Assembly: GCA_001664005.1 (NCBI GenBank)
Contig: CP016093.1
Span: forward strand, 2,811,001-2,875,000
Reading direction: 5' to 3'
DNA: 64,000 bases
Origin: Rhizobiales bacterium NRL2
GTDB lineage: Bacteria; Pseudomonadota; Alphaproteobacteria; Minwuiales; Minwuiaceae
In this document: piece after piece, positions 6,557 through 41,776 of the stretch
Layout: each line of letters opens with the position of its first letter
Position numbering within the stretch: the first letter of the stretch is position 1
Position numbers and translations under genes: made by a program
The notes under the pieces: generated by a model
The model's database searches: none
Told to the model about the DNA's origin: nothing
Seen by the model: the letters and a program-made list of their open reading frames with translations, nothing else

Positions 6557-6790
6557 TCAGCGGCGGCGGTTGCGCACCCGCACGCGCTCGCGCCGATGGA
6601 GCGCGACAGCGAGGCCGACGCCCAGCCCCGCGGCGGCGAGCACGATGGCGAAATGGGCCGGATCGGAGACCCAGTGCGCGACCAGTCCGACGATGCCGGT
6701 GACCGGCTCGCCATGGCCCGGATGGGCCGAAGCGCCCGTGGCGGCAAGGGTGGACAGGACAGCGGCGGAAAGGACGGACAGGTGGCGCAC
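6557..6790 (-). CDS. Small exported membrane protein with an HPGHG motif
   Basis: Predicted 77-aa protein starting at GTG 6790, chosen because AGGAG lies 6 nt upstream. A signal peptide (VRHLSVLSAAVLSTLAATGASA) precedes HPGHGEP, then come two hydrophobic stretches and an Arg-rich tail (HRRERVRVRNRRR) that would face the cytosol. HPGH also opens HupE/UreJ-type metal transporters, but this protein is far too short to be one. It starts 45 nt downstream of the DUF2474 stop, so it may be the last gene of the cytochrome bd operon. A metal or assembly role is speculation. Confidence 0.55.
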   Translation of the reverse strand: MRHLSVLSAAVLSTLAATGASAHPGHGEPVTGIVGLVAHWVSDPAHFAIVLAAAGLGVGLAVALHRRERVRVRNRRR

Positions 6791-6835
6791 GGCGTTCTCC
6801 TCGAAAGTGCTCAGTCGACAGGCAGCGGTCACGAT

Positions 6836-6955
6836 CTAGGCAAGAATCAGCTTCAGGAGCAAGCTCGCAAGCCCCAGTGCGGCAACGCCGCACGCCCAGA
6901 TCGCCACGAACCAAAGGACCCGGCGGAGTCTTTCAGGAATCGCCGGCACGCTCAA
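6836..6955 (-). CDS. DUF2474 / CydX-like small subunit of cytochrome bd oxidase
   Basis: 39-residue single-pass protein: PERLRRVLWFVAIWACGV followed by a hydrophobic helix ending LLLKLILA. This matches DUF2474 proteins encoded after cyanide-insensitive-type cydAB, equivalents of E. coli CydX. The start is a TTG at 6955 that overlaps the cydB stop (TTGA), with GGAGAGGG 6 nt upstream; no ATG is available. Translational coupling to cydB fits an integral oxidase subunit. Confidence 0.8.
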   Translation of the reverse strand: MSVPAIPERLRRVLWFVAIWACGVAALGLASLLLKLILA

Positions 6956-7953
6956 TGGTAACCCTCTCCCTCCCGCACCTTGCCGCGGAACACCCAGTAG
7001 GCGTGCGCGGTGTAGGCCAGAATGATGGGCAACAGGATACCGGCGCCGACCAGCATGAAGATCAGCGTGCTCCGCGGCGCCGCCGCCTCCACGATGGTGA
7101 TCTCCGGCGGGATCATCATCGGCCAGAAGCTGATGCCAAGACCGACGAAGCAGAGCACGAACAGGCCCTGGGCGGCGAGGAACGGCGCCCGGTCGCCGCC
7201 GCGCAGAAGACCGCGCATCATGATCGCTGCAGTCGCCGCGACCAGCAGCGGCACAGGCCAGGCGAACCAGATCATCGGGGCCCGGAACCAGCGTTCGAAA
7301 TAGAGCGGATCGAGAATCGGCGTCCAGAGACTGACGACGGCGACCAGGACATAGGTGGTCACACCGGCGGCCCATGCGAAATCCGTCGCCTGGCGGCGCA
7401 GCCCGCCCTCGGTCTTCATGATCAGCCAGGTGGCGCCAAGCAGCACATATCCGGCGATCAGCGCCGCGCCGGTGAACAGGCTGAAGGGCGTCAGCCAGTC
7501 GAAGGGGCCGCCGGCATAGGCCCGGTTCTCCACCGCGATGCCCTGCACCAGCGCTCCCAGGGTCACACCCTGCGCCAGCGCCGCGACGAGCGAACCGCCG
7601 AAGAAGGAGGCGTCCCAGAGCCAGCGGCGGCCTTCGCTCTTCCAGCGGAACTCGAACGCGACCCCGCGGAAGATCAGCGCCACCAGCATCACGATGACGG
7701 GGATGTAGAGCGCCGGCATGACCACGGCGTAGGCCAGCGGGAAGACCGCGAACAGCCCGCCGCCGCCGAGGACCAGCCAGGTCTCGTTGCCGTCCCAGAC
7801 CGGCGCGACGGAGTTCATCGCGACGTCCCGGCGCGCATCGTCCTTCAGCAGCGGGAACAGGATGCCGATGCCCAGGTCGAAACCGTCCAGGGCGACGTAG
7901 AGCAGGACGGAGAAGACGATCAGGCAGGCCCATACATAGGCGAGTTCAGGCAT
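6952..7953 (-). CDS. cydB: Cytochrome bd ubiquinol oxidase subunit II
   Basis: 333-aa polytopic inner-membrane protein with the CydB features ALDGFDLGIGILFPLL near the N-terminus, WDGNETWLVLGGGGLFAVFP, and a C-terminal PIILAYTAHAYWVFRGKV. Partner of CydA in a proton-pump-independent quinol oxidase with high oxygen affinity. Its ATG overlaps the end of cydA by 8 nt and its stop overlaps the DUF2474 start. The length and the downstream DUF2474 gene suggest the cyanide-insensitive (CioB) branch. Confidence 0.95.
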   Translation of the reverse strand: MPELAYVWACLIVFSVLLYVALDGFDLGIGILFPLLKDDARRDVAMNSVAPVWDGNETWLVLGGGGLFAVFPLAYAVVMPALYIPVIVMLVALIFRGVAFEFRWKSEGRRWLWDASFFGGSLVAALAQGVTLGALVQGIAVENRAYAGGPFDWLTPFSLFTGAALIAGYVLLGATWLIMKTEGGLRRQATDFAWAAGVTTYVLVAVVSLWTPILDPLYFERWFRAPMIWFAWPVPLLVAATAAIMMRGLLRGGDRAPFLAAQGLFVLCFVGLGISFWPMMIPPEITIVEAAAPRSTLIFMLVGAGILLPIILAYTAHAYWVFRGKVREGEGYH

Positions 7954-9340
7954 GGCGGCCCTCCTTCATCGCGCTTTCGCGGGGCGCCGCACGTGTGGGA
8001 CCGGGTTCGGCCTCCTCCGCCTCCGGCGTGCCCGGCGTCGTCGCCATCAGCCGCAGCATGTAGACCGCGCCCGCGCCGAAGACGGCGAAATAGGTGACGA
8101 CGAAGACGGCCAGCGAGGTCCCGACCGTCCCGGCGTCGATCTCCGAGGCCGACTGGGAGGTCCGCAGCAGGCCGTAGACCGTCCAGGGCTGACGCCCGAC
8201 CTCGGTCGTCACCCAGCCGGCCAGCACCGCGACGATGCCCGACGGGCCCATGACGACGCCGGCGCGGAGCAGCCAGCCGCTGTCGAACAGTTTTCTGCGC
8301 CAACGCAGCCACAGGCTCCAGAACCCCACCAGCGCCATGGCGGCGCCCAGCGCCACCATGATCCGGAAACTCCAGAACACGACCGTCGCGTTCGGCCGGT
8401 TCTCCGACGGGAAGGCCTTCAGGCCCTGAACCTCGCCTTTCCATTCATGGGTCAGGATCAGACTGCCGAGTTTCGGGATCTCGATCGCGTAGCGTGTTTC
8501 CTCCGCCGCCATGTCGGGCCAGCCGAACAGGATCAGCGGCGCGCCACGCTGCGTCTCGAAATGCCCTTCCATGGCCGCGACCTTGGCCGGCTGGTGCTCC
8601 AACGTGTTCAGGCCGTGCAGATCGCCGGCGAAGATCTGCACCGGCGCCACCAGGGCCGCCATCCACATGGCCATGGAGAACATCAGCCGCGCCGCCTCGT
8701 TCGCCCGGTCGCGCAGCAGGTGGAAGGCGCCGACCGCGCCGACGATGAAGGCGGTGGTGAGATACGCCGCCAGCACCATGTGCACGAGGCGGTAGGGAAA
8801 GGACGGGTTGAAGACGATGTCCCACCAGTCGTCCGGCACGAACTGGCCGGCTTCGTTGATGGCGTAGCCGGCGGGCGTCTGCATCCAGCTGTTCACCGAC
8901 AGGATCCAGAAGGCCGAGAAGAAGGTGCCGAAGGCGACCATCAGCGTGGCCGTGAAGTGCAGGCGCTTCCCCACCCGCTTCATGCCGAACAGCATGATGC
9001 CGAGGAATCCGGCCTCCAGGAAGAAGGCCGACAGCACCTCGTAGCCCATAAGCGGGCCGAGGATCGGTCCCGTCCGGTCGGAGAAGACGCTCCAGTTGGT
9101 GCCGAACTGGTAGGACATGACGATGCCGGAGACGACGCCCATGCCGAAGCTGAGGGCGAAGATCTTCAGCCAGAAACGGAAGACCCGGAGGTAGATGTCC
9201 CGGCCCGTCCACAGCCACAGCCCCTCCAGCACGGCGAGGTAGGACGCCAGGCCGATGGTGATCGCCGGAAACACGATGTGGAAGGCGACCGTGAAGGCGA
9301 ACTGCACCCGGGCGAGGTCGACGGCGAGGGACTGGTCCAT
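7946..9340 (-). CDS. cydA: Cytochrome bd ubiquinol oxidase subunit I
   Basis: 464-aa heme-bearing subunit. Seen: the N-terminal RVQFAFTVAFHIVFPAITIG with the heme b595 ligand His, the GVVSGIVMSYQFGTNW signature, DLHGLNTLEHQPAK with the heme b558 His, and GWVTTEVGRQPWTVYGLLRT. It is shorter than E. coli CydA (about 520 aa) because the quinol loop is short, typical of CIO-type enzymes. First gene of the operon cydA-cydB-DUF2474. The upstream 160 nt carries a perfect palindrome (9420-9435) that may be its control site. No TTGAT-N4-ATCAA box was seen there. Confidence 0.95.
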   Translation of the reverse strand: MDQSLAVDLARVQFAFTVAFHIVFPAITIGLASYLAVLEGLWLWTGRDIYLRVFRFWLKIFALSFGMGVVSGIVMSYQFGTNWSVFSDRTGPILGPLMGYEVLSAFFLEAGFLGIMLFGMKRVGKRLHFTATLMVAFGTFFSAFWILSVNSWMQTPAGYAINEAGQFVPDDWWDIVFNPSFPYRLVHMVLAAYLTTAFIVGAVGAFHLLRDRANEAARLMFSMAMWMAALVAPVQIFAGDLHGLNTLEHQPAKVAAMEGHFETQRGAPLILFGWPDMAAEETRYAIEIPKLGSLILTHEWKGEVQGLKAFPSENRPNATVVFWSFRIMVALGAAMALVGFWSLWLRWRRKLFDSGWLLRAGVVMGPSGIVAVLAGWVTTEVGRQPWTVYGLLRTSQSASEIDAGTVGTSLAVFVVTYFAVFGAGAVYMLRLMATTPGTPEAEEAEPGPTRAAPRESAMKEGRHA

Positions 9341-9401
9341 GGGGCGTTCCGATCCTGCCTGAGAGGCTCCCCTCTATTTCACACCCGAAGCGCGGGGTTC
9401 A

Positions 9402-9422
9402 CAGGCGCCCTGCTGTCGCAGG
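9402..9422 (+). repeat. Left copy of a 21-bp near-identical direct repeat flanking the 286-aa unknown gene
   Basis: CAGGCGCCC-N2-CTGTCGCAGG, repeated in the same orientation at 10476-10496 with only the two central bases different (TG here, GA there). The copies are 1074 bp apart and bracket a single gene. This could be a shared regulator site or the edge repeats of a small inserted segment. Confidence 0.6.
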
Positions 9423-9435
9423 CAACATGTTGCCT
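9420..9435. promoter_or_regulatory. 16-bp perfect palindrome between cydA and the divergent 286-aa gene
   Basis: AGGCAACATGTTGCCT reads the same on both strands. It lies 80-95 bp upstream of cydA and about 65 bp upstream of the divergent gene at 9500, so a dimeric regulator bound here could control either. The cognate regulator is not identifiable. Confidence 0.5.
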
Positions 9436-9499
9436 TCCCGTTCTCGCTCTCATAGGATGTATTTCAGGATATTGTGCAATCTAAATGAGGAGAAGTCGC

Positions 9500-10360
9500 A
9501 TGGGGCACGCACTGGTCTACGTCCTGTTGCCGGAGGATCCGAGAGCAACCGGAAAGCATCCCGATTCAGCCGTCATCGACCGCCTGATGCCTTATTCCGA
9601 CATGAGCATGAGCGACGATACGGAAGCCTATCGGCTGTCCGAGGCCGAGCCGCCGGATCACGATGGCTACATGTCGGCGAACTGGCGCATGACGTCCCGC
9701 CAGTGCCGCCTCGAACTGGACGCCCGCCTGCAGGAAGCCGGTATTCCGAATGACATGACCGCAGAGACGCCGCTCGAGCGGCTTGCCGAACTCGCCAACC
9801 GGACCCGGGAGTATCACGGCGAGAGCTATCGGGTGGAGAACGGCATGATTGTCGCTGTCTCGACCGTCCAGCCCTTCCCGAAATACGACTGGTACGAAAT
9901 CGGCGGGCGCTGGTCGTCCGAGTTTGCGCCCCCTGAGGTCGTGAAACGCACGGAGCGCGAGGTCACCTGTAGCCTGTGCGAAGGCAGCGGGCGGCTGGTG
10001 GAGAAGACGGGATTCCTGTCGAGCCTGTTCGGAAGGAAGCCCGACCCGGCGGAGGGTGACCCCTGCCCGCGCTGCGGGGCCACCGGCACCGTCACCGAAG
10101 TGACGGAATGCGGGGAGGCCCGGGATGAGGACCTGATCCTGTCGCCGGAAGACGCGATACGGATCATGGACGCCGAGGACATCGGCGGCCCCTGGGCGAT
10201 CGTCGACCTCGACGGCGTCTGGCACGGTGGCGAGGGCGGCATCCTCTGGGGCCTCCCCGAAGAGGATGACGCGGAAGCGGCCGTCAAGGACATCGCGCGG
10301 GACATCCTGCGCAGGGTGCCGGCGGCGACCGTCGTCGTGCCGGTCGACATCCACATGTAG
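9500..10360 (+). CDS. Unknown protein with two CxxCxGxG-type zinc-ribbon motifs
   Basis: 286 aa, starting at ATG 9500, which has AGGAG 7 nt upstream; an earlier in-frame ATG at 9485 overlaps that Shine-Dalgarno. A middle segment KYDWYEIGGRWSSEF resembles a motif seen in uncharacterised phage and plasmid proteins. It is followed by two DnaJ-like cysteine motifs, CSLCEGSG (about residue 157) and CPRCGATG (about 190), probably binding one zinc. The C-terminal part is acidic (VDLDGVWHGGEGG). No signal peptide or membrane segment. The gene stands alone between two copies of a 21-bp repeat, suggesting acquisition as a unit. Function unknown. Confidence 0.75.
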   Translation: MGHALVYVLLPEDPRATGKHPDSAVIDRLMPYSDMSMSDDTEAYRLSEAEPPDHDGYMSANWRMTSRQCRLELDARLQEAGIPNDMTAETPLERLAELANRTREYHGESYRVENGMIVAVSTVQPFPKYDWYEIGGRWSSEFAPPEVVKRTEREVTCSLCEGSGRLVEKTGFLSSLFGRKPDPAEGDPCPRCGATGTVTEVTECGEARDEDLILSPEDAIRIMDAEDIGGPWAIVDLDGVWHGGEGGILWGLPEEDDAEAAVKDIARDILRRVPAATVVVPVDIHM

Positions 10361-10735
10361 CCAGCTCATTTAGCCGGAACTGTCGCGCGCAGCCCCGCGC
10401 GCCCTTTGTGTCCTCATCTTGCGAGATTTCCCAGAAATGTGCTGGTCTGCAATTTCTGTTGCGTGCCGACGTTTGCAGGCGCCCGACTGTCGCAGGGGAC
10501 TTTTCCGGACACGGACGGCACGGCGAACGTCGGCGCCCTGTGGCCTCCGCACGCCACGCCCATTACATCCCTGCCATCGCCAAAATCCGACCACTCCTCC
10601 CCGCTTTACTGAATTTCCGACAGTTTTTAGGATAATTTTAGCCAACGACATAGAAGCGATGCATATTTTTTGATTGCCAGGAATTGAACGAAGGCGTTCT
10701 TATAACCGGCATCGTGCCGATTGAGCATGCGTTTT
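10361..10735. other. Gene-free interval upstream of the HD-GYP gene
   Basis: About 375 bp with no convincing coding region; short open frames here have neither a good Shine-Dalgarno nor recognisable composition. It contains the right copy of the 21-bp repeat and a locally AT-rich stretch (about 10590-10720) that probably holds the promoter of the next gene. A TATAAC at 10701-10706 could be a -10 element, but no -35 at standard spacing is evident. Confidence 0.5.
10476..10496 (+). repeat. Right copy of the 21-bp direct repeat
   Basis: CAGGCGCCC-N2-CTGTCGCAGG, matching 9402-9422 at 19 of 21 positions. It lies 116 bp past the stop of the 286-aa gene and about 270 bp upstream of the HD-GYP gene. 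Confidence 0.6.
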
Positions 10736-10741
10736 AGGGAG
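10736..10741 (+). promoter_or_regulatory. Shine-Dalgarno pointing to a non-canonical ATC start
   Basis: AGGGAG ends 8 nt before an ATC codon at 10750 that opens the HD-GYP frame. The in-frame TAG at 10735-10737 overlaps it, so translation must begin downstream. No ATG, GTG or TTG occurs in this frame before 10897. Confidence 0.5.
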
Positions 10742-10749
10742 AACGTCCG

Positions 10750-12429
10750 ATCCTTCTGCTCGATTTCGCGCAGAATGCCAGCCTCGTTCTGGCACTATGC
10801 TTCCTCCAGCGCTTCATTGCCGAGCAGGGAAGCGGGAGCGGCCTTCGGCGTGGGGTTCTCCCCGGCCTTCTTTTCGGCGCCGCGGCGATCGCTGCGATGC
10901 TCATGGCGACTGAAGTCATGCCCGGCATCATCTTCGATGGCCGCACCGTGGTTCTCTCCATGGGGGCGCTGTTCGGCGGGCCGCTGGTGGCGGCGATCTC
11001 AGCCGCGATGGCCGCCGGCTTCCGCATCTGGCTTGGCGGCGGCGGCGCCCTGATCGGCGTCTGCGTCATCGCCACCGCCAGCGGGATAGGGCTACTCGTC
11101 CGGCAGGCAGTCAGCGAACGGACCGCCGATATCAGCGTCTGGCGCCTGCTGGCGGTCAGCCTCGCGGCGCACCTTGCCGCCGTCCTCTGGTTCCTCGCCC
11201 TGCCGTTCGACGCCACTGGTGTGGGCTATTTCGAACTGGCATGGCCGTACGTCGTCATCCTGACGCCGGCCACCGCCGTCACCGGCCTGCTGCTCCGCGA
11301 GGTCGAGAGGATGCGGTTGGCCGACCAGCGCGTGCGCGAAAGCCGGGACCGCTTCTCCCACCTGGTCGAGACCAGCGCCGTCGCCCTGTTCGAGGAGGAT
11401 GTCACGGTAACGCTTCGGCAACTGGAGAAGCTTCGCCGCGACGGCGTCGAAGACCTGGAGAGCCATCTTGCCGCCCGGCCGGAACTGACGGCCAGGCTCG
11501 CCGGCAGCGTGAAGATCGTCCACGCCAATCCGTCGGCAGTCCGCCTGTTCGGTGCGAAGAATGTGCAGGAACTCTGCACCGACGTTCGCAGGCTTTTCGG
11601 ACCGAAAGCCGAAACCACCTTCGTCAATCTGCTCTGTGCGCTCTGGTCGGGACGCGCGACCTTCCAGCACGAGACCGATATGCGCACCCTCGACGGCCAG
11701 ATCCGGCGCTGCGTGATTTCGCTGCCCCTGCCACAGGACATGGAGGCGGCGCGTCAGGTACCGGTCAGCATCATCGACATCACCGAACAGACCGAGGCCG
11801 AGGAGCAGGCGCGCAGTCTGGGCGCGCGGCTGGAAAAGGCGTCACTCGACGCCGTGGGCGCGGTGGCCGCGATGGTCGAGCGGCGCGACCCCTATACCAG
11901 CGGTCATCAGGCCAATGTCGCCGCCCTGTCGGTGGAGATCGCGCGCAAGCTCGGCTGGGACCGCTTCAAGATCGAGGGATTGCGTCTCGGAGCCATGATC
12001 CACGACATCGGCAAGATCTCGGTGCCCTCGGAGATCCTGAACCGGCCGGGCAAGCTGACCGACAGCGAGTTCGCGATCATCAAGGCTCATCCCGAGACCG
12101 GCTACGACATACTGAAGGGGACCGACTTCCCCTGGCCCATTCGGGAGATGATCCTTCAGCACCACGAGCGCCTGGACGGCAGCGGCTATCCGGCCGGCAT
12201 GCGCGGCGACGCGATCCTGGACGAAACGCGTGTGCTCTCCGTGGCCGACGTGCTGGACGCCATCACCTCCCACCGGCCCTACCGGCCGAGCCGTGGGATC
12301 GAAACCGCCCTGAAGGAGATCGAGGACGGACGCGGCACCTACTACGACCCGGCGGTCGTCGACGCCGCGCTGGAACTGATCCGCGACGAAGGCTATCGCT
12401 GGCAGAAGGACTTGCACGAGAGCGATTAG
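10750..12429 (+). CDS. HD-GYP c-di-GMP phosphodiesterase with 5TMR-LYT membrane sensor
   Basis: About 559 aa if read from ATC 10750. An N-terminal 5TM-5TMR_LYT domain (about 1-190) shows ILLLDFAQNASLVLAL, GIIFDGRTVVLSMGALFGG and FRIWLGGGGALIGV. A PAS-like segment follows (about 200-350), then a catalytic HD-GYP domain with HDIGK (about 418), HHERLDGSGYPAG (about 471) and DVLDAITSHRPYRPS. All metal and GYP residues are intact, so it should hydrolyse c-di-GMP. Family homology starts well before the first canonical start at 10897; starting there would remove about 50 residues including the first transmembrane helix. Probable rare start codon, sequencing error or recent mutation. Not operonic with its neighbours. 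Confidence 0.85.
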   Translation: MLLLDFAQNASLVLALCFLQRFIAEQGSGSGLRRGVLPGLLFGAAAIAAMLMATEVMPGIIFDGRTVVLSMGALFGGPLVAAISAAMAAGFRIWLGGGGALIGVCVIATASGIGLLVRQAVSERTADISVWRLLAVSLAAHLAAVLWFLALPFDATGVGYFELAWPYVVILTPATAVTGLLLREVERMRLADQRVRESRDRFSHLVETSAVALFEEDVTVTLRQLEKLRRDGVEDLESHLAARPELTARLAGSVKIVHANPSAVRLFGAKNVQELCTDVRRLFGPKAETTFVNLLCALWSGRATFQHETDMRTLDGQIRRCVISLPLPQDMEAARQVPVSIIDITEQTEAEEQARSLGARLEKASLDAVGAVAAMVERRDPYTSGHQANVAALSVEIARKLGWDRFKIEGLRLGAMIHDIGKISVPSEILNRPGKLTDSEFAIIKAHPETGYDILKGTDFPWPIREMILQHHERLDGSGYPAGMRGDAILDETRVLSVADVLDAITSHRPYRPSRGIETALKEIEDGRGTYYDPAVVDAALELIRDEGYRWQKDLHESD

Positions 12430-12497
12430 GCCTGTCCCGCCGGCATTGCGCGCGCCACGGGCTGACGGCATGGTCCGCATCCGGGGAGGGATCGCGC

Positions 12498-13427
12498 ATG
12501 AAGATTTGCGTCATGGGCGCCGGCGGGCTGGGCGGCTTCTTCGGGGGCTGGCTCGCGGACGCCGGCGAGGAGGTCAGCTTCGTCGCCCGAGGCGACCACC
12601 TGCGCGCGATGCAGGCGAACGGCCTCACTGTGCGGAGCGCGCTGGGCGACCGCACCGTCAGTCCCGTCCGCGCCACCGACGATCCGGGCGTCATCGGGCC
12701 GGTGGACGTGGTGCTGTTCTGCGTCAAGACCTACCACCTGGAAGAGGCCGCGCCGCGCTGCCGGCCCCTGCTCGGCCCGGAGACGGCCGTGATCTCCGTG
12801 CTCAACGGCGTCGAGGCGCCCGAACGGCTGGGCGCGATCCTCGGTCCCGCTCATGTGGTCCCCGGCCTCACCTACGTGCCCGCGGCCATCGCTGCGCCGG
12901 GCGTCATCGAGCACAAGGGCGACGCGGCGGGACTGGTGTTCGGCGAAGCGGATGGCCGCGAGAGCCCGCGCCTCCTCGCCTTCCGCGATGCCTGCCGCGG
13001 CGCCGGGATCGACGCCCGGATCGAGCCGGACATCATGGCGGCGCTCTGGACCAAGCTTGTGCTCTGGTGCGGCACCAGCGGCGTGACCAGCTTTGCCCGC
13101 TCCCCCTTCGGCGCCGTGCGTTCCTCGGCCGAGATGCGGGAAATCTACGCGGCCCTTGTCGCCGAGGCGGCCGCGGTGGCCCGGGCGCGTGGCATCGCCC
13201 TGCCCCGGTCGGTCGAGGCCGACCTGCTGGCGCGGCTCGACGCCATGCCCGCGGAAGCCACCTCCTCGACCCACCGCGACCTGGAGAATGGCCGCCCGCT
13301 GGAACTCGACGCCGGACTCGGCGCCATCGTCCGGCTCGGCAGGGAAGCGGGCGTCGCCACGCCGATGAGCGCCCGCGTGCTGGCCGCGCTCGTCGCCTTC
13401 GCCGCCGGGGACTCATCGCGGGCGTGA
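12498..13427 (+). CDS. Ketopantoate reductase family (PanE/ApbA) oxidoreductase
   Basis: 309-aa NADPH-dependent reductase. The Rossmann motif is at the very N-terminus (MKICVMGAGGLGGFFGGWLA), followed by DVVLFCVKTYHLE and NGVEAPERL, and by a C-terminal helical domain with MAALWTKLVLWCG, where the catalytic Lys would lie. The start has GGGGAGGG upstream. PanE makes pantoate for CoA synthesis, but many paralogues act on other 2-keto acids. The next gene is a Rieske oxygenase 34 nt downstream, so this copy may belong to a catabolic unit. Confidence 0.8.
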   Translation: MKICVMGAGGLGGFFGGWLADAGEEVSFVARGDHLRAMQANGLTVRSALGDRTVSPVRATDDPGVIGPVDVVLFCVKTYHLEEAAPRCRPLLGPETAVISVLNGVEAPERLGAILGPAHVVPGLTYVPAAIAAPGVIEHKGDAAGLVFGEADGRESPRLLAFRDACRGAGIDARIEPDIMAALWTKLVLWCGTSGVTSFARSPFGAVRSSAEMREIYAALVAEAAAVARARGIALPRSVEADLLARLDAMPAEATSSTHRDLENGRPLELDAGLGAIVRLGREAGVATPMSARVLAALVAFAAGDSSRA

Positions 13428-13461
13428 TTTCTGCTACCATGATCCGGGGAGGATGACCGCC

Positions 13462-14781
13462 ATGCTGACACGCGAAGAGAACGAGCTGCTGACCCGGACC
13501 GGACCCGGCACCCCCATGGGCGAGTTGTTCCGCCGCTTCTGGCAGCCCATCGCCCTGGCCGAGGAGGTCGCGGAAGCCGACCGGCCGCCGAAACGCATGA
13601 AGCTGATGGGCGAGGATCTGCTGCTGTTCCGCCAGAGTGACGGCCGTGTCGGACTGGTCGAACCGCGCTGCGCCCACCGCGGCGCCGATCTCTATTTCGG
13701 CCGCAACGAGGAATGCGGCCTGCGCTGCGTCTATCACGGCTGGAAGTTCGACGCCGACGGCCGCTGCGTCGATGTCCCCAACATGCAGCCGGGCCGCGCG
13801 CGCGACAACATCATGAAGACTGCGCGCATCCGGTCCTATCCGGTGCGCGAATGGGGCGGCCAGATCTGGGCCTGGTTCGGCCCGGAAGGCGCAGAGCCGG
13901 AACTGCCCATGGTCGAGTGGGCGCTGGTACCGCCGGAGAACCGCTACATCTCAAAGAAGCTGCAGGAGTGCAACTGGGCGCAGTCGCTGGAAGGCGCGAT
14001 CGACACGGCGCATTTCAGCTACGTCCACCGCGTGCTGTCGGAGGAAGGCACCGGCAAGCCGGTCTATCTCGACAAGCGCCAGCAGTGGATACACGAGGAC
14101 GGCGCCCCCACCTTCGAGGTGATCGGCCATGACGGCGGCCTGGTCATGGGCGGCGCCCGCCGCGCCGATCCGGGCGAGCTCTACTGGCGGATCAGCCAGT
14201 ACCTGGTGCCGAACCATTCGCTGGCGCCGGGCACCTTCCCCGGCGAGCCCTACGCGGCGCAGAGCTGGATGCCGGTCGACGACGAGAACTGCTGGATCTT
14301 CACCGTCACCTGGTGCCCCGACCGGCCGATCAGCGACGAGGAGCTGGAACGCTATGACAGCGGGCGCAGCGTCCACGCCATGGTCGACGAAAACTACGTG
14401 CCGCACCGCAACCGCGCCAACGAGTACATGCTCGACCGCGAACTGCAGCGAACCAAGCTGTTCATGGGCATCACGGGCCTGTCGGAGCAGGACGCGGCGA
14501 TCCAGGACAGCCAGGGCCGCATCGCCGACCGCGCGCGGGAGACCCTGACGCCGTCGGACGCCGGTATCGTGCAGTTCCGAAAGCTGGTGCTGGGCCTGGC
14601 GCGCGATCTGCAGCAGGGCATCGAGCCGCCCCAGGCGCAACGGCCCGAGGTCTATGCCTGCCACTCGGGCGGCGCGGTCGAGCCCGAGGACGTGCCGTTC
14701 GAGCAGGTGCTGGAGCGGCGCTTCGGCCACCCGACCGCCCACGCCACGGACCTGCTGCCCGGGCGCCAGGCGGCGGAGTAG
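13462..14781 (+). CDS. Rieske non-heme iron oxygenase alpha subunit (phthalate dioxygenase-like)
   Basis: 439-aa aromatic-ring-hydroxylating oxygenase. The Rieske [2Fe-2S] ligands are CAHRGADL and CVYHGW (about residues 70-95). The mononuclear iron site lies in EGAIDTAHFSYVHR (about 177-190). The start at 13462 is preferred over ATG 13453 because GGAGG lies 9 nt upstream and MLTREENELLTRTGPG is the usual N-terminus of this phthalate-4,5-dioxygenase/phenoxybenzoate type. A reductase partner is not encoded nearby. Substrate unknown; aromatic acids or ethers are typical. Confidence 0.9.
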   Translation: MLTREENELLTRTGPGTPMGELFRRFWQPIALAEEVAEADRPPKRMKLMGEDLLLFRQSDGRVGLVEPRCAHRGADLYFGRNEECGLRCVYHGWKFDADGRCVDVPNMQPGRARDNIMKTARIRSYPVREWGGQIWAWFGPEGAEPELPMVEWALVPPENRYISKKLQECNWAQSLEGAIDTAHFSYVHRVLSEEGTGKPVYLDKRQQWIHEDGAPTFEVIGHDGGLVMGGARRADPGELYWRISQYLVPNHSLAPGTFPGEPYAAQSWMPVDDENCWIFTVTWCPDRPISDEELERYDSGRSVHAMVDENYVPHRNRANEYMLDRELQRTKLFMGITGLSEQDAAIQDSQGRIADRARETLTPSDAGIVQFRKLVLGLARDLQQGIEPPQAQRPEVYACHSGGAVEPEDVPFEQVLERRFGHPTAHATDLLPGRQAAE

Positions 14782-16398: not shown

Positions 16399-18564
<2,166 letters not shown>

Positions 18565-18787
18565 CCCCAAACAGAATTGACGTGCGCCGTGTATAACGCC
18601 GCGCGCGGCGCGACGCAAAGCGATGGGCGCATGCCGGCCCGGCATGGCCGGCAAATATTGCCACGTCCGGCGGGGTCCTGTGGCCCGGTTCACGATTTCG
18701 AACCCGATTTATTCTGCCTTTTCGCAGAATGAGTCGGGAATCCAGCCAGATAGCGTGGCGGCCGTCACAATCCGCCGTCCGGCAAAC

Positions 18788-18803
18788 TGGCACGGCCATT
18801 GCA
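18788..18803 (+). promoter_or_regulatory. Consensus sigma-54 (-24/-12) promoter
   Basis: TGGCACG-GCCA-TTGCA matches the RpoN consensus at every conserved base, with the invariant GG and GC separated by exactly 10 nt. The predicted start near 18814-18816 leaves a leader of about 55 nt before the gene at 18871. Confidence 0.85.
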
Positions 18804-18870
18804 TTTTCCCTCGTGAGACTGCGGTGGGCCGACCGGAAAGACGCGGCCTTCAAACAAAGGAGACCCGACC

Positions 18871-19185
18871 ATGTACTATCTGCTGATTGCCGCTGCGATG
18901 GGTGTGGGCGTTCCGGCCGAGGAATCCGCGCTGATCCAGGTCACCGAGAACGTCGTGCCCAACGAGGCGCTGACCGCCTATGACCAGCAGCGCATCAACT
19001 ACAATGTCCGCAACTGGGAAGCCGAGCTGGGTGGCCAGGCCACCGTGCACTTCGGCACCTATGACGACCTGGAGGCCTGCAAGGCCGCCCGCGCCGAAAT
19101 CCGGCTGGCGCTGCGCGACGCCGACAAGGCCGACGCCATCCGCTCCAACTGCTTCGAGAGCCGTGAGCAGGTCGCGAGCAACTGA
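18871..19185 (+). CDS. Unknown small secreted protein driven by a sigma-54 promoter
   Basis: 104 aa. A short hydrophobic N-terminus ([16 protein letters not shown]) suggests export or a membrane anchor. The rest is a small alpha/beta-like domain with two Cys (EACKAAR and SNCFES, about 68 and 94) that could form a disulfide in the periplasm. A strong AAAGGAG Shine-Dalgarno precedes the ATG. It is monocistronic: consensus -24/-12 promoter upstream, strong terminator 26 nt downstream. Being next to the flagellar block with the promoter type used by flgF and flgI, a flagellar or surface role is plausible but unproven. Family not recognised. Confidence 0.8.
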
Positions 19186-19210
19186 CCCCATTCAAGGCCC
19201 GGCGAAGAAG

Positions 19211-19246
19211 GGGGCTGCGCCCGAAGGCGCGGCCCCTTTTGCTTTT
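19211..19246 (+). terminator. Rho-independent terminator
   Basis: An 11-bp GC-rich stem (GGGGCTGCGCC / GGCGCGGCCCC, one G-T pair) with a CGAA loop is followed by TTTTGCTTTT. It ends the 104-aa gene and sits 12 bp from the stop of the convergent TPR gene. Confidence 0.85.
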
Positions 19247-19257
19247 CCGCAGGAAGC

Positions 19258-22224
19258 CTAGTTGATGGCGCTGAGCGGCGTGTCCCGCAGCTTCTCGCGG
19301 TAGGCGGTCATGAACTGCTCGAAGCGGCCGACCTGCGCGATCTCGGCGGCGAGATTGCGGAACTCGGCGGTTTCGCGCTGATCCACCGAGGTCACGACCT
19401 GGAAGGCCGGCCATTCGGGCTTGTCCTGCATGCGGATGGTGAAGTCGTCCCTGATCCGCTCCAGCGCCGGACGGTCGCCCGCCAGCGAGCTGGCGATGGC
19501 GAAACGCAGGATGTCCTGGCGCGCCTCGGTGTCCAGTTCCTTGTTGGTGGTGCGCAGCTCCACCAGCCGGGTGCTGAGCGAGACTGCCGCGCGTTGCCAT
19601 TTCCGGGCGCGCCACAGGATCTCGGTCCGGACGTCGTTGACGTCCTCGCCTTCCAGGCCGTTGAGGAGCGCGAGGGCGCGCTCGTAGTGGCCGAGATCGG
19701 TCAGGCCACGGGCCTCCAGCATGCGGCGCTCCCTCACCTGATCCTCGGTCAGCGAGAGGTTGCGCGAAGCGCGCAGCGCGGAAATCGCTTCGTTCGGCTT
19801 CCGGTCCAGCAGGTAGAGCACGGCCAGGCGCGTGGCGACGCGGGATTTCTCGACCCCCGTCAGACGGTGGCGCACCTGGTGCTCCAGCAGCTTCGCGGCT
19901 TCGTCCAGCAGTTCCACCGCGGCCAGCCGGTCGGCCAGACGGCGGATCATCCGGTCGCCGCGGTCGCCCTCGGGGGTCAGCTCACGGAAATCGTAGTAGA
20001 GCCCCATAGCCGTGACCGGGGACATGGATTCGGCGTGCACACCCTCGAACAGGCTGGCGAAGACCTCGTTCATGCCGCCGGCCAGCTTCTGCGCCTCGGG
20101 CAGGTCCGGGAACTGCTCCACCGTCCGGCGCATGGTGACCATGCCCAGGCGGTAGTCGCCCACGTCGATGTAGAGTTCACCCAGACGCCGCATGAGATCG
20201 AATTCGAAGACGTCGCCGCGCCAGGCGAAGCGGAGCCGCTCCAGCCGCTCGATGGCGTCCTTCCTGGTGATCCGCTCGTCGTCCAGCAGCAGGTCGGTCT
20301 CGGCGAAACGCGCCCGCGCACGGACCGAGCGCTGCACGCTTTCCGAAAGCTCCGCGAACAGATCGGCGGCATCCTCGGTCTCGCCGGTCAGCGCCTTGAT
20401 GCGCGCTGCCAGCAGGCGCGCCTCTTCGCGGCGCGCCTCCGTGCCGGCCTGCTTCAGCAGCTTGGCGACCTGTTCCTCGGCCAGCGCCGGATCGTGCAGA
20501 TGCAGCGCCGTTTCGGCCAGGGCGATGCGGAACATCGGCTGCATGTCGGCCGGAAGCTCGTCCAGCGCCGTCAGACCGTAGCGGAACTCGCGCCGCGCCT
20601 CCTGGAATTCCCGGCGCTTGGCGGCAAGCAGCCCGCGGAACAGGGCCACGTCGCCGGCGTCCTTGAGCTGCGGATGACGCAGGTCGGCCGCCGCCTCCGC
20701 ATATTGCCCGGCCAGCAGGCGCGCAACGCCGCGCAGCGCCCGGTAGCCGGGATCGATGTCGGCGCGCTTGTCGTCGTCCTCGATACGGGCCATCACGCCC
20801 AGCGCCTCGCTGGCCAGGCCGTTGGCGACCATGAAGCGGGCAAGAATGCGCCGCTCGCCATTGCGGGCCAGCGGCTGGGCGACCGAGATACGCTGCAGCA
20901 GATCCTGGCGGATGGCGACGGGGTCTTCCTCGCCCTTCCAGGTGGTCAGGTCGAGCACGCGCCGCGAGGGCGTCGGCGCGCCGTCACCGTTGAGCTTCGG
21001 CGGCCCTTCCGTCAGATGCGCGGCGGTCGTGGCCTCGGCGGCCAGATGCAGCGTCCGGGGTCCCGCGATCGAAAGGCCAGACTCGTCCACGACCACGTCG
21101 AGGTCCAGCGACTTGAAGCGCACGGCGACGCCCTGCGGCGTCTCCGGCAGGTCGAACTTGACCAGCCGCCGCTCCGGCCTGACGCCGAGCGCCGCTTCGC
21201 GGAGCGGGATCAGGGCGATGCGGTCGCCGACCAGCGGGTCGTCCACGATCACCGGCCTGGCCGCGCCGGCCACGGCAGCGAACATCCTGGGACCGCGGGC
21301 GCTCTCGGCCTGGGCGTCGAAGATGACGGCGCTCTCCGCCCGTCCGCGGCCGCCGCCGATGTCCACCACCCAGTCATTGCCGTCGACCGTGATGTCCAGT
21401 GGCGACCCCGCCGCCACGTCGATGCGGAACAGCGTGCCGTCGCTGGAGTGTTCGGGCTCGATGCGGTCGACCGGCCCCAGACCCGTGGTGGGTTGTCCGC
21501 CGAAATCGGGCGTCATGTCGTCCCCGAACACCAGCCAGACATGTTCGCCCCTGTGCAGGGCCGCCGCGCTGGTCCGGACCGGCCAGCGGAAACGGAAGAT
21601 CGTGCGGCCGGGGCGCAACTCGTGCTCGACCCTGACGGTCTGCGACGGGTCGGAGACGGGCCGGGGCGCCGGCTCGGCGGCGGCCTCCGCAGGCGCCGGC
21701 GCCTCGGCGCGGGCGGCCGCTTTCTTCGGTTCGGGCGCCGGAGCGGGTGCAGGCTTCGGTGATGGCTCGCGCGTTTCCGCGGCCTCGCGGGCGCGGCCGA
21801 GCGCGTCGGCCAGCGGCTGTGTGGCGTAGTCGGCCTTGCGAGCGGGCCGTGCGGGCCTGGCCGTCGCTGCGCCCAGGGCGACGTCGACAACGACCTTGGG
21901 ACCGATCCGGAATGCCTTGAGTATGTCGCCCGACGGCGCCTCGAACCGCACGGTCCGGCCATCGGCCGAGACCTTCACCGCGCCGATGGCGCGCGGAGCC
22001 CGGGCGCGGAACTGCGAGATGTCGAAGTCCGCCGCCCGCTCGAAGCGGATGCTGACCTCGCCCTGCGTCTCGCTGACGGTGTACTCCACGGGGGAGGTCC
22101 AGTCGAAGACCGCGCGGCTGTAGCCCGCATGGTCGCCGAAGCGGATGTTGACGCTCTCGCGCGCCGCAGCCGGGCCGACGGCCAGCGCCACGAGAACCGA
22201 GATCGACAGCAGCAGATGTTTCAT
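19258..22224 (-). CDS. Large periplasmic TPR protein of the flagellar operon
   Basis: 988 aa, one of the largest proteins here. A signal peptide (MKHLLLSISVLVALAVGPAAA) is followed by an AMIN-like beta domain (about 22-120: VNIRFGDHAGYSRAVFDW), a Pro/Ala/Glu-rich linker, a second beta region, then from about 430 to the end a superhelix of TPR-like repeats (such as EALGVMARIEDDDKRADIDPGYRALRG). Its ATG overlaps the stop of the upstream MotB-like gene (ATGA), making it the last gene of the fliL-fliM-DUF6468-motE-MotB-like series. Likely a periplasmic scaffold around the motor. Function not established. Confidence 0.8.
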   Translation of the reverse strand: MKHLLLSISVLVALAVGPAAARESVNIRFGDHAGYSRAVFDWTSPVEYTVSETQGEVSIRFERAADFDISQFRARAPRAIGAVKVSADGRTVRFEAPSGDILKAFRIGPKVVVDVALGAATARPARPARKADYATQPLADALGRAREAAETREPSPKPAPAPAPEPKKAAARAEAPAPAEAAAEPAPRPVSDPSQTVRVEHELRPGRTIFRFRWPVRTSAAALHRGEHVWLVFGDDMTPDFGGQPTTGLGPVDRIEPEHSSDGTLFRIDVAAGSPLDITVDGNDWVVDIGGGRGRAESAVIFDAQAESARGPRMFAAVAGAARPVIVDDPLVGDRIALIPLREAALGVRPERRLVKFDLPETPQGVAVRFKSLDLDVVVDESGLSIAGPRTLHLAAEATTAAHLTEGPPKLNGDGAPTPSRRVLDLTTWKGEEDPVAIRQDLLQRISVAQPLARNGERRILARFMVANGLASEALGVMARIEDDDKRADIDPGYRALRGVARLLAGQYAEAAADLRHPQLKDAGDVALFRGLLAAKRREFQEARREFRYGLTALDELPADMQPMFRIALAETALHLHDPALAEEQVAKLLKQAGTEARREEARLLAARIKALTGETEDAADLFAELSESVQRSVRARARFAETDLLLDDERITRKDAIERLERLRFAWRGDVFEFDLMRRLGELYIDVGDYRLGMVTMRRTVEQFPDLPEAQKLAGGMNEVFASLFEGVHAESMSPVTAMGLYYDFRELTPEGDRGDRMIRRLADRLAAVELLDEAAKLLEHQVRHRLTGVEKSRVATRLAVLYLLDRKPNEAISALRASRNLSLTEDQVRERRMLEARGLTDLGHYERALALLNGLEGEDVNDVRTEILWRARKWQRAAVSLSTRLVELRTTNKELDTEARQDILRFAIASSLAGDRPALERIRDDFTIRMQDKPEWPAFQVVTSVDQRETAEFRNLAAEIAQVGRFEQFMTAYREKLRDTPLSAIN

Positions 22225-22820
22225 CCGCGATTCTCCGGAGCGACATCGAGAATGATCTGCAGCGCCGCCGGCGTCTCGCCGGGGCTGAAGCGGGTCTCGA
22301 CGGGAATGGCGGCGTCGACACCGCCGCGTTGGAGCAGCGCCGCCAGGCCGCCGGCCTGTCTGAGGCCGTCATCGAAAACGCCGAGAACGCCGGCGCGGCG
22401 GCCCTGTGAAGCTGGAAGAATTACCGCCACGCGAAGCGGATAGCCGGCAGACCTGAGATACTGGATCATGTCGGCGGGCGCCGCGGCCGCGGCATCGCCG
22501 ATCGGCTGCTGCAGGGCCACGCCCCGGGCCAGCCGCACGACCTTCCAGGGCCAGCCGGCGCGCGCCAGCCGCTCCGCCAGCACGGTCGCCAGGTAATCGC
22601 TTTCGGCGTCAGCCTCCACTGGTGCGCGGCGCATGGCCAGCGCCGCCGACCCCGGATCTGGCGCCACGGTCTGCCACTGGCCGTCATTGCTGCCGAGCAC
22701 CAGCGCCAGGCGGTCGAGCTTCGGCGCGTCGTACTCCGAGATCGCCAGGAGCATGACGAAGAAGGCGCCCAGCACCGCGGCGAGGTCGGAAAATGCGATC
22801 AGCCAGGAGGTTCTGGACAT
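22221..22820 (-). CDS. MotB-like protein retaining the transmembrane proton-binding Asp
   Basis: 199 aa. The single membrane segment SWLIAFSDLAAVLGAFF aligns residue for residue with E. coli MotB (SWKIAYADFMTAMMAFF), keeping the Asp that carries ions in stators. The periplasmic part is short and lacks a clear OmpA-type peptidoglycan motif, though the end (LRQAGGLAALLQRGGVDA) resembles a decayed OmpA-like fold. ATG 22820 was preferred because GGAGG lies about 10 nt upstream; GTG 22829 would overlap the previous stop. It overlaps the TPR gene by 4 nt. Probably acts with the next-listed protein. Confidence 0.7.
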   Translation of the reverse strand: MSRTSWLIAFSDLAAVLGAFFVMLLAISEYDAPKLDRLALVLGSNDGQWQTVAPDPGSAALAMRRAPVEADAESDYLATVLAERLARAGWPWKVVRLARGVALQQPIGDAAAAAPADMIQYLRSAGYPLRVAVILPASQGRRAGVLGVFDDGLRQAGGLAALLQRGGVDAAIPVETRFSPGETPAALQIILDVAPENRG

Positions 22821-22825
22821 GACCG

Positions 22826-23452
22826 TCACGCCTCCGGCGCCGGCAGCAACAGGAACTCGATCGAGGCGGAAGGATCGCGTTGGACGCGCAGGGCGAAACG
22901 TGCGGGATCGACGCCGTTGCGGATCAGGTCGCCGCCCAGCGCCGCCGCGCGGCGGCGGGCCAGCGACGCGTCGCCCGCGTCGCCCATCACCAGGACGAGA
23001 TCCAGCCTTTCATTCGCGCCGGTTTCACCCAGCAGCGCAGCGAGACGGTTCACCATGGCAATCCGGCTCGGCCTGAGTATGCTGCTGTCCTCACCGAAGG
23101 CCTTGCGCTGCGGCATGCTGACGGCGATGAGACCCTCCGATGCCTGCAACCGCCATTCTCCGCGGTCCATGTGGCCGTCGAACAGTTCCACCAGCTGCGC
23201 CTCCAGCGCGTCGGCCACCAGCGTCAGCGGCGCATCGGGCCGGGGCGCCAACTCGACCGGCGCGATGGTGATGCCGGCAAGGACGGCACGGGCGCGGGCC
23301 TCGGAAATCTCGGCGTTCGAGTTCAGCATGATGAAGAAGGCCAGAAGGATCAGGTAAAGCGCCAGGAACAGAACCACATTGGCCTGGTCCGGTCCCGCCG
23401 GCGCGTCGGCCTCGGGCGTTGTCGGCTCTGTTTCGGTGGCGCTGGTGTACAT
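22826..23452 (-). CDS. MotB/OmpA-like protein lacking the transmembrane Asp
   Basis: 208 aa: a Pro/Glu-rich cytosolic N-terminus, one membrane helix (VVLFLALYLILLAFFIML), then a periplasmic OmpA/MotB-like domain with FGEDSSILRPSRIAMVNRLA, a degenerate GHTDN position (VMGDAGD) and RRRAAALGGDLIRNGVD. Aligned on AFF, the MotB Asp position is Ala, so it cannot carry protons itself. It lies next to the Asp-bearing paralogue, suggesting a heteromeric MotB-like or ExbD/TolR-like unit. No MotA homologue is in the window. Confidence 0.7.
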   Translation of the reverse strand: MYTSATETEPTTPEADAPAGPDQANVVLFLALYLILLAFFIMLNSNAEISEARARAVLAGITIAPVELAPRPDAPLTLVADALEAQLVELFDGHMDRGEWRLQASEGLIAVSMPQRKAFGEDSSILRPSRIAMVNRLAALLGETGANERLDLVLVMGDAGDASLARRRAAALGGDLIRNGVDPARFALRVQRDPSASIEFLLLPAPEA

Positions 23453-26351: not shown

Positions 26352-26533
26352 GTTCACCGTTTCCCTGAATGGGTAATGCCTTGATGTCGTGAAGCGGAGC
26401 ATCGGCGTTTTCGGTTAACAAAGCGTTGGAACCGGGGCAGCGAACGGGCAAAAAATGCCGCCCCGCGGCAAGCCCTGACCGGCAATCCCCCACCGGCCAA
26501 ATTGAAAATCACGCTATTTCAATAACTTGGCTC

Positions 26534-26549
26534 TGGCACGGCGCGTGCT
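26534..26549 (+). promoter_or_regulatory. Sigma-54 promoter of the flgF operon
   Basis: CTGGCACG precedes GCGC-GTGCT: the TGGCACG -24 element is perfect, the -12 element differs from TTGCT only in its first T, and GG-N10-GC spacing is exact. It lies 44 bp upstream of the flgF ATG at 26593. Confidence 0.8.
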
Positions 26550-30016: not shown

Positions 30017-30433
30017 TCAGTCGTCGCGGTACGACTTCTCCCGCCGCTCGTGGCGCTCCTGCGCCTCCACGGAAAGGGTCGCGATCGGACGGGCCTCCAG
30101 CCGGTTCAGGCTGATCGGGTCGCCGGTGTCCTCGCAATAGCCATAGGTGTCGTCTTCGATGCGTTGCAGCGCGGCGTCGATCTTCGCGATCAGCTTGCGC
30201 TGCCGGTCACGCGTCCGCAGTTCCAGCGCGCGGTCGGTTTCGGTCGATGCGCGGTCGGCGAGGTCGGCGAGACGCTCGGTCTCCGACTGCATGGTCTTGA
30301 TGGTTTCCTGAGAGTCCCGAAGGATGTCGTCCCGCCAGCGCAGAAGCTTCTTGCGGAAGTATTCCTTCTGGACGGGGTTCATGAACGGCTCGTCATCGCT
30401 GGGCCGATACCCGTCACTCGATTGGATCCCCAT
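30017..30433 (-). CDS. dksA: DksA-family RNA polymerase regulator with degenerate zinc finger
   Basis: 138-aa protein binding the RNA polymerase secondary channel, acting with ppGpp in the stringent response. The coiled-coil tip motif DxxDxA is kept (DLADRAS), as is LELRTRDRQRKLIAKIDAAL. In the C-terminal finger (GYCEDTGDPISLNRLEARPIATLSVEAQ) only the first of four cysteines remains, so zinc binding is unlikely; this loss is seen in other alphaproteobacterial DksA proteins. A GGGAGG Shine-Dalgarno supports start 30433. It sits between flgH and fliX. Confidence 0.92.
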   Translation of the reverse strand: MGIQSSDGYRPSDDEPFMNPVQKEYFRKKLLRWRDDILRDSQETIKTMQSETERLADLADRASTETDRALELRTRDRQRKLIAKIDAALQRIEDDTYGYCEDTGDPISLNRLEARPIATLSVEAQERHERREKSYRDD

Positions 30434-30551: not shown

Positions 30552-30968
30552 CTAATTGTGATATTTGGCCAGTTCGACCGCGACGCGAAGATCGATCGCG
30601 TCAAGGGTTTCCTTGAGTCCCGGATCGTCGCTGTCGCTCCTGCGGGCCGACAACGCGCTCGCGAGGTTCTCCAGCGTCCGGCGCGTCAGGCTCCCCGAGA
30701 GCAGGGAGATGCGAATTTCGTCCAGCCGGTCGAGAAGGTCGTCTGCGCGGCGGATTTCCTGGCGGCGGCGGCGTTCGGGCGTGTCGTCCTCCTGCGCCAG
30801 CAGCACCGCGCCGAGCGCCGACGGGCCGCCCAGTCCGGTCAGCATCGCCGGCGCGCCGGCCTGGGGAGATTCGCCGACCGCGAAGGTCCCGCCGTCGGCC
30901 CGCTGTTCGCGCCGCCGGGTCCGGTTCACCGGCTGGGCGCTCTTCAGGCTCTGGGTGTCGATCTTCAT
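30552..30968 (-). CDS. fliX: Flagellar assembly regulator FliX
   Basis: 138 aa. The disordered basic N-terminus and conserved C-terminal helical domain (RRADDLLDRLDEIRISLLSG, LKETLDAIDLRVAVELAKYH) match FliX of Caulobacter, which couples flagellar assembly to the sigma-54 activator FlbD. The divergent fliX / flgI arrangement is also as in Caulobacter. Start 30968 chosen at MKIDTQSLKS. Presence of FliX agrees with the sigma-54 promoters at flgF and flgI. FlbD itself is not in the window. Confidence 0.88.
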   Translation of the reverse strand: MKIDTQSLKSAQPVNRTRRREQRADGGTFAVGESPQAGAPAMLTGLGGPSALGAVLLAQEDDTPERRRRQEIRRADDLLDRLDEIRISLLSGSLTRRTLENLASALSARRSDSDDPGLKETLDAIDLRVAVELAKYHN

Positions 30969-31124
30969 GTGCGTTCGAATCCTGTCCTCATGACCAGCGA
31001 CTGTCACCGAACGGCGTAAAGATTTCCTTTAGAACCGGCAGATATTGCCGCCCCGGCGGCAGAAACGTCCCGCCGCGAGGTCCGGCCATGGGCGGTATCC
31101 CCCGGAAAAGTCGGAACTTTTTCA

Positions 31125-31140
31125 TGGCATGACTTTCGCT
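31125..31140 (+). promoter_or_regulatory. Sigma-54 promoter of the flgI operon
   Basis: TGGCATG-ACTT-TCGCT has the invariant GG and GC separated by 10 nt and single differences in each element from TGGCACG-N4-TTGCT. It lies 41 bp upstream of the flgI start. Confidence 0.75.
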
Positions 31141-40934: not shown

Positions 40935-41077
40935 AGGGCGGCAGAAATTTCCGGCGGCACGCCGATACCGCCCCCTTCGATCACCTAAGTCGTTGAAAAC
41001 GCGTCATGGAGGGCGCGGCACGGCGCTTGCTCAATGAACCCCGCGAAGAGTTGCAGAAGAACCTCGGAGCGGAACCG

Positions 41078-41776
41078 ATGAGCCTAGCCGTAATCCCCGA
41101 AGCACTGAGCGACGCCCCCATGGTCGGCCGACTGGCCACCGAGATCGTACGGCGGTTCTCAGTGCCCGACGCCAATTATGACGGCGAACGACTGATCCTC
41201 CTGGAGCGCATCATCGATTTCGCGGCCAATGCGGAACGCGAAATCCAGGAGCAGCGCGAGAAGATCGCCGAACTGGAAGCGCTGGCCCGCACCGACGAGC
41301 TTACCGGCCTGATCAACCGCCGCGGCCTCGAGGCCGCCCTGGAGCAGCTGCTTTCCGCCGCGAACCGTCACGACGAGGAAGGCGTCATCTGCTACATCGA
41401 CGTCGACGACTTCAAGGGCATCAACGACAAGCACGGCCACGCCCGCGGCGACAAGGTGCTGCAGAAGGTGGCCGAGATCATTTCCGACCATGTGCGCCTT
41501 GACGACATCGTCGCCCGCGTCGGCGGCGACGAGTTCGTGGTCGTGCTGACCAGGACGTCGCTGCGCAACGGCCTGCGCAAGGCGAAGGAACTGCAGCACA
41601 CCCTGGACGCGACGGTGATCGGCAAGGGCTGCAGCACCATCCGCATCAACGTCTCCCTGGGTATCCAGGGCTATGACGGCCGGACCTGCCTGGCGGATGT
41701 CATGGCCATGGCCGACCATGCCATGTACGCCGACAAGCGCGCCCGCAAGCTTTCCCTGGTGCCGATCGGCCTCTGA
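41078..41776 (+). CDS. GGDEF diguanylate cyclase
   Basis: 232-aa cytosolic protein: a helical N-terminus with coiled coil (EREIQEQREKIAELEALA), then a GGDEF domain with DELTGLINRRGLE, YIDVDDFKGINDKHGHARGD, intact GGDEF (RVGGDEF, about 150) and an RxxD inhibitory site (RLDD) five residues before it. It should make c-di-GMP under product inhibition. ATG 41078 has GGAG 8 nt upstream and is preferred over ATG 41006. No sensor domain recognised. Confidence 0.88.
   Translation: MSLAVIPEALSDAPMVGRLATEIVRRFSVPDANYDGERLILLERIIDFAANAEREIQEQREKIAELEALARTDELTGLINRRGLEAALEQLLSAANRHDEEGVICYIDVDDFKGINDKHGHARGDKVLQKVAEIISDHVRLDDIVARVGGDEFVVVLTRTSLRNGLRKAKELQHTLDATVIGKGCSTIRINVSLGIQGYDGRTCLADVMAMADHAMYADKRARKLSLVPIGL

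Follow-up and report, generated by a model that had tools for sequence, protein, structure and literature searches.

A genus-restricted orphan gene as a probable new member of the FlbD/sigma-54 flagellar regulon in Rhizobiales bacterium NRL2

The window, by which we mean the whole 64-kb stretch of Rhizobiales bacterium NRL2 DNA that was analyzed, carries a small gene on its forward strand (18871..19185) that encodes a protein of 104 amino acids. The gene is preceded by an exact match to the -24/-12 promoter of sigma-54 (TGGCACG-GCCA-TTGCA, 18788..18803, forward strand) and, farther upstream, by a palindromic box, CCGGCAAATATTGCCACG (18648..18665, forward strand), that resembles the boxes of flagellar promoters and is called FlbD-type or ftr-like here. 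This name rests on the position of such boxes at flagellar promoters. A divergent neighboring gene encodes methylmalonyl-CoA mutase (mcm, 16399..18564, reverse strand; NCBIfam NF006944, 1293 bits versus a cut-off of 876), and the start that we chose for it is 84 bp from the box. Downstream of the small gene is a predicted intrinsic terminator, a hairpin with a 14-bp stem and then a T-rich tail (19208..19239, forward strand). The next ORF beyond it (19258-22224, reverse strand) encodes a protein of 988 aa that matches TPR and AMIN-like models weakly. It belongs to a run that includes two MotB-plug-like proteins (22221-23452) and that forms the end of the motility block facing the small gene.

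Synonymous codon changes are at least as numerous as non-synonymous ones in all seven close pairs of family copies, and this comparison indicates that the 104-aa ORF, whose ATG is preceded by AAAGGAGA, is a real protein gene. The original prediction had given the gene a terminator of its own, which folding bears out: the region 19186-19255 has a minimum free energy of -35.7 kcal/mol (z -2.1; 8 of 200 shuffles fold equally well), and the hairpin is absent from the list of a simple terminator scanner. The protein was also said to belong to no recognized family, and this holds for Pfam, NCBIfam, PHROGs, and PADLOC, where the best E value (0.016) was to a PHROG of unknown function. By sequence, no PDB chain was matched below E 0.87, none of the 174 pattern stretches in viral contigs encodes a relative, and a literature search limited to open-licence papers found no paper on the family.

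Among 60 genomes searched, the family occurs in seven, all of which belong to one genus (7/7, NRL2 included), and it was found neither in the two other genera of the same taxonomic family (0/2) nor in the others (0/51). A profile of 12 homologues matched four of 385 genomes of the class, all again from this genus; the two genome sets overlap. Five named records hold a homologue, namely two Minwuia sp., M. thermotolerans, Kordiimonadales bacterium IMCC3096, and an uncultured alphaproteobacterium. The 12 homologues comprise seven first copies, second tandem copies in three relatives (G001, G002, and G003), and two distal paralogues, one in NRL2 (genome position 2757241) and one in its near twin G004, and most are 50-57% identical to the NRL2 protein. 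On this sampling, the family is a genus-restricted orphan, so far limited to one genus of Alphaproteobacteria. A check for nonflagellated carriers returned none, as flagellins are present in all seven genomes with the gene; they are also present in both sister genera that lack it. Because these two flagellated genera do without the gene, it is, judged by genome content, dispensable for flagella in general. As a side observation, the distal paralogue of NRL2 adjoins, by eye, one ORF that resembles a phosphatase and three mutually related ORFs that resemble chemoreceptors (locus L102, about 6742-7098 and 8253-13999); a scan of one of these three identified a NIT-HAMP-MCP protein.

The promoter sequence TGGCACGGCCATTGCA at 18788-18803, a full match as originally predicted, is the sole exact TGGCACG-N4-TTGC match within the window, and the ATG lies 67 nt from its last base. 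Sites with at most two mismatches number 22 in the window versus 27.9 expected, and the genome holds six exact sites and 50 with at most one mismatch, compared with 73 for a reversed control pattern. Because near matches are thus no commoner than expected or than the control, the motif, taken on its own, carries little weight and is not beyond chance. Its conservation is beyond chance. In the last 130 bp before each of the seven first copies, the best match is located at -83, -83, -77, -78, -79, -79, and -79, with scores of 18-21 of 21 that are reached by only 0-5 of 500 shuffles, and the -24 GG and -12 GC are retained in every case. Among 1786 background windows of 130 bp, 1.2% score at least 18 and none scores at least 20. 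The second tandem copies reach scores of only 14-15 (three of three; 101-179 of 500 shuffles). The distal paralogue of NRL2 has a doubtful match (score 18 at -122, leading T missing, 15 of 500 shuffles), and that of G004 scores 16 at best (112 of 500).

Since the site is conserved before the gene in seven of seven species of the genus, sigma-54 dependence is well supported and, at the level of sequence, very probable, in keeping with the RpoN control that had been proposed. If the promoter-like sequence were a chance match and the gene were read from an ordinary promoter, the lack of enrichment of sigma-54-like patterns in window and genome would be expected, but the recurrence of the site at the same place in all seven orthologues would not. 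A weak scan of 18550-19350 also found no sigma-70-type match, and we consider such a coincidence very improbable. Control of the FlbT type through a conserved 5'-UTR hairpin was considered and dropped, as no such hairpin was found (folding z -1.29 to +0.62 across seven orthologues). The five further exact sigma-54 matches in the genome lie at G000:C1:2978621, 3252742, 1845798, 1221021, and 4292719; by eye, three of them precede ORFs, for a Gly/Ser-rich protein and two substrate-binding-like proteins, and two have no clear downstream ORF.

The box at 18648-18665, which did not figure in the original prediction, bears on the choice of activator. The palindrome form CCGGCARANNNTGCCGG is found upstream of flgF/fliL, flgI, the flagellin genes, and a GGDEF gene. 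Two models of it were used, one made from 13 boxes picked by eye and one from 12, in which the GGDEF box was left out and only flagellar promoters remained. Under the 13-box model, the site, which was outside the training set, scores 16.7, more than every other non-training place in the window. Under the 12-box model it scores 16.5, and scores of at least 16 occur in the window only at 18648, flgF/fliL (26445), flgI (31034/31035), and the GGDEF gene (40938). When the 450 bp upstream of the gene are shuffled, one of 300 shuffles reaches the score of its box. The score is not unique, as one place inside an ORF of locus L094 scores 18.4, higher than the gene's own box; this is the sole place scoring at least 16 in about 111 kb of other NRL2 sequence, of which a few kb were counted twice.

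A short version of the box pattern has 18 matches genome-wide versus 18 for its reversed control. These include the 104-aa gene, flgF, flgI, the flagellins, and the stretch upstream of an ORF that was taken by eye for fliF, and most of the others sit inside ORFs with no good promoter close by. Because the short pattern is not enriched, and because the place in the L094 ORF scores so highly, we place weight only on the composite of a box and a sigma-54 site separated by 70-130 bases. The composite has six matches in the 4.7-Mb genome versus two for a control pattern: the 104-aa gene, flgF, flgI, two flagellins, and position 613736. The last of these lies at an ORF start and was judged accidental, as its promoter half is inside an ORF.

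The flagellar operons of the window, which had been said to use sigma-54 promoters, do have sigma-54-like sites before flgF (26534, one mismatch) and flgI (31125, two mismatches), and with their boxes these promoters span 26445..26548 and 31035..31139, both on the forward strand. The distance from box to sigma-54 site is about 140 bp at the 104-aa gene versus about 88-93 bp at the flagellar promoters. Enhancers tolerate varied spacing, and the distance of the box is therefore no strict requirement. Near the sigma-54 promoter beside fliX, which in NRL2 is that of flgI, a box scoring at least 11 is present in nine of nine genomes of the taxonomic family. At the flagellin loci, a box precedes the match by ~207 bp in four of five relatives within the genus (L039-L042), and none was found in the fifth locus (L038, 2038 bases). 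Caulobacter ftr4 lies upstream of fliF (PMC3930126), as does the box before the putative fliF of NRL2.

The regulators that would act through such a box are encoded. FlbD (G000:1987867-1989255, between fliN and flhA) passes the NCBIfam FlbD cut-off (783.4 versus 750 bits), and its receiver domain is a poor match (18.4 bits versus a cut-off of 30.2). Its partner FliX is encoded beside flgI (30561..30968, reverse strand; PF10768); an ORF at 30020-30433 that was a candidate for fliX is DksA. Both proteins occur in all nine genomes that were searched from the taxonomic family, among them those of the two sister genera without the 104-aa gene; the match to FlbD in G006 spans residues 1-191 only. 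In Caulobacter, FlbD acts through ftr sites to activate late and repress early flagellar genes, and FliX couples this activity to assembly (PMC3930126, PMC3096577). The presence of a flagellar-type box upstream of the gene, the near confinement of the composite to flagellar promoters, and the encoding of both FlbD and FliX together make it likely that FlbD activates the 104-aa gene. Membership in the FlbD/FliX regulon, as first suggested from the promoter and the flagellar surroundings, thus gains a new basis in the box; the adjacency to flagellar genes holds in NRL2 and its near twin only.

Boxes are also found before the gene in other species. The best upstream box of G004 scores 17.1 (0 of 300 shuffles), close to that of NRL2, and the values for more distant relatives are 16.0 in G005 (2/300), 15.1 in G006 (2/300), 13.1 in G001 (4/300), and 11.8 in G002 (12/300). 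G003 has no good box upstream, with a best score of 8.5 that 81 of 300 shuffles reach. Thus, four of the five relatives beyond NRL2 and G004 carry a box reached by at most 12 of 300 shuffles, although these species share ancestry and their boxes are not independent. The distal paralogues also have no good box (9.0 in NRL2, 53/300; 4.0 in G004, 251/300). The box lies 140 bp from the sigma-54 site in NRL2, 141 in G004, 189 in G005, 238 in G006, 186 in G001, and 250 in G002. An alignment of five relatives lines up their boxes, and when NRL2 is added its box falls elsewhere. From these comparisons, we regard control by FlbD as likely in NRL2 and plausible in the relatives.

The setting of the gene supplies arguments for a different activator. 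By eye, the gene or a tandem pair of it lies between an mcm-like ORF and a ctaA-like ORF at L002-L005, and the short contig L001 has the same ctaA-like neighbor on its right; the L004 ORF matches NCBIfam heme A synthase with E 8e-95, below its cut-off (318 versus 550 bits). At none of L001-L005 is the gene beside flagellar genes. The gene could therefore depend on sigma-54 but respond to another enhancer-binding protein, of nitrogen, carbon, or dicarboxylate type, with the palindrome serving mcm or being coincidental and the protein acting as a metabolic accessory, perhaps in methylmalonyl-CoA/propionate metabolism. Proximity to mcm in NRL2 and these relatives fits this reading, as do the 84 bp between the box and the divergent mcm start, the strong conservation among the five aligned relatives of the intergenic part closest to mcm, which holds several of their boxes, the unusual and variable distance of the box, the equally good box in an unrelated ORF, and the six full sigma-54 activator domains that the NRL2 genome encodes besides FlbD. 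It does not readily explain why the box resembles the flagellar boxes much more closely than shuffled sequence does, or why the composite is nearly confined to flagellar promoters. On the strand reading toward mcm, moreover, the best sigma-54 score is 13.5-16.0 of 21 (300 bp examined in each of seven orthologues). We judge another activator possible but doubtful, and activation by FlbD remains the preferred reading. The conserved stretch near mcm at L001-L005 carries repeated TGCAAAT/ATTGCA-type arms, to which a regulator of the propionate type may bind.

A second gene of the window appears to follow the same promoter logic. A stand-alone GGDEF diguanylate cyclase (41078-41776, forward strand) is preceded by a sigma-54-like site at 41016 and, farther upstream, by an FlbD-type box at 40938. 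In eight of eight relatives, two of them from other genera, a sigma-54 site scoring 19.5-21 of 21 precedes the best match to this gene, and a box scoring at least 12 is present in seven of eight (not in G008); the genes compared are best matches only. The pattern suggests a conserved c-di-GMP enzyme under FlbD control, and the gene is better supported in that role than the 104-aa gene. If so, the flagellar checkpoint would feed directly into c-di-GMP through a conserved single-domain diguanylate cyclase.

Two members of the 104-aa family were modeled with AlphaFold (pLDDT 81.8 and 88.5), and the models agree on strands at residues 2-9, about 22-25, 57-64, and 90-96 and on helices at 36-53 and 67-83. 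A soluble alpha/beta protein of ferredoxin-like arrangement is the most likely product. Foldseek returned no match under E 0.001, with best E values of 0.076 and 0.024. The PII-like protein SbtB, which ranks first in two further structural comparisons, shares the same overall arrangement (6mmq_A, Z 7.2, rmsd 2.8, 73 residues aligned; in a second structural search, 6mmc, Z 6.8, rmsd 3.6, 74 aligned), but with Z below 8 and 7% sequence identity. Because both Z scores fall in the range that the tool gives to a common arrangement, the modeled fold can at most be called ferredoxin-like and offers no clue to function.

The original prediction described the protein as secreted, with an export-like N-terminus and two Cys. 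The cysteines are there, Cys70 and Cys94 being invariant in 12 of 12 homologues, and so is a hydrophobic stretch at residues 4-14, followed in the NRL2 copy by V-P-A at 14-16. These features would suit a small, Sec-exported protein of the flagellar regulon with a disulphide between its two Cys in the periplasm or outside the cell. Yet no K or R occurs within residues 1-19 of any of the 12 homologues, where a signal peptide would have a positive n-region, and residues 1-7 (MYYLLIA) are invariant in all 12, whereas signal peptides usually drift in sequence. The same stretch is modeled as a confident beta strand (mean pLDDT of residues 1-10, 89 and 93), and the two distal paralogues have L-P-T in place of V-P-A. 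Export is therefore an unlikely reading of the N-terminus, and secretion is not supported; the product is likely to be cytoplasmic.

In size and as a small accessory protein of the same pathway, the product would resemble the small alphaproteobacterial flagellar regulators FlaF, FlbT, and FliX. Unlike these three, the 104-aa protein has no Pfam or NCBIfam match and is restricted to one genus. Its regulation invites comparison with the FlbD/FliX-activated class III/IV genes of Caulobacter (PMC3930126, PMC3096577), with which it shares a -24/-12 promoter, an upstream palindromic box, FlbD and FliX, and a flagellated host. In contrast to those genes, its product falls in no flagellar or other curated family, its box is farther away and variably spaced, and the gene lies outside flagellar clusters at L001-L005.

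The gene, its promoter motif and the conservation of that motif, the terminator, the likeness of the box, and the presence of FlbD and FliX are all read from the sequence. On balance, we favor a single-gene unit that is read by sigma-54 polymerase, most likely activated by FlbD, and that encodes a soluble cytoplasmic accessory of the swimming cell. Transcription from the sigma-54 promoter would end at the hairpin. To activate the gene, FlbD would most likely bind the palindromic box, which lies about 140 bp before the -24 element. Expression would come after the early flagellar structure is built, once FliX lets FlbD act, and the 104-aa product would appear alongside the late (class III/IV) flagellar products. 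We infer this binding and timing, together with the cytoplasmic location and the accessory role, in which a genus-specific protein may bind a partner protein or a small ligand. A bolder version, which we consider rather improbable, makes the family a new, genus-specific ligand-binding regulator of the cytoplasm, PII-like in shape, whose expression FlbD would turn on at the late flagellar checkpoint and which would link the swimming state to central metabolism or c-di-GMP signaling. With the GGDEF protein, it would form a non-structural branch of FlbD control.

The 104-aa gene thus probably belongs to the FlbD/sigma-54 flagellar regulon, as a new member confined to one genus. If this is correct, the FlbD checkpoint would control genes that do not encode parts of the flagellum, lineage-specific orphans among them. 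It would also mean that, where homology is of no help, an orphan family can be placed in a pathway by its promoter signature.
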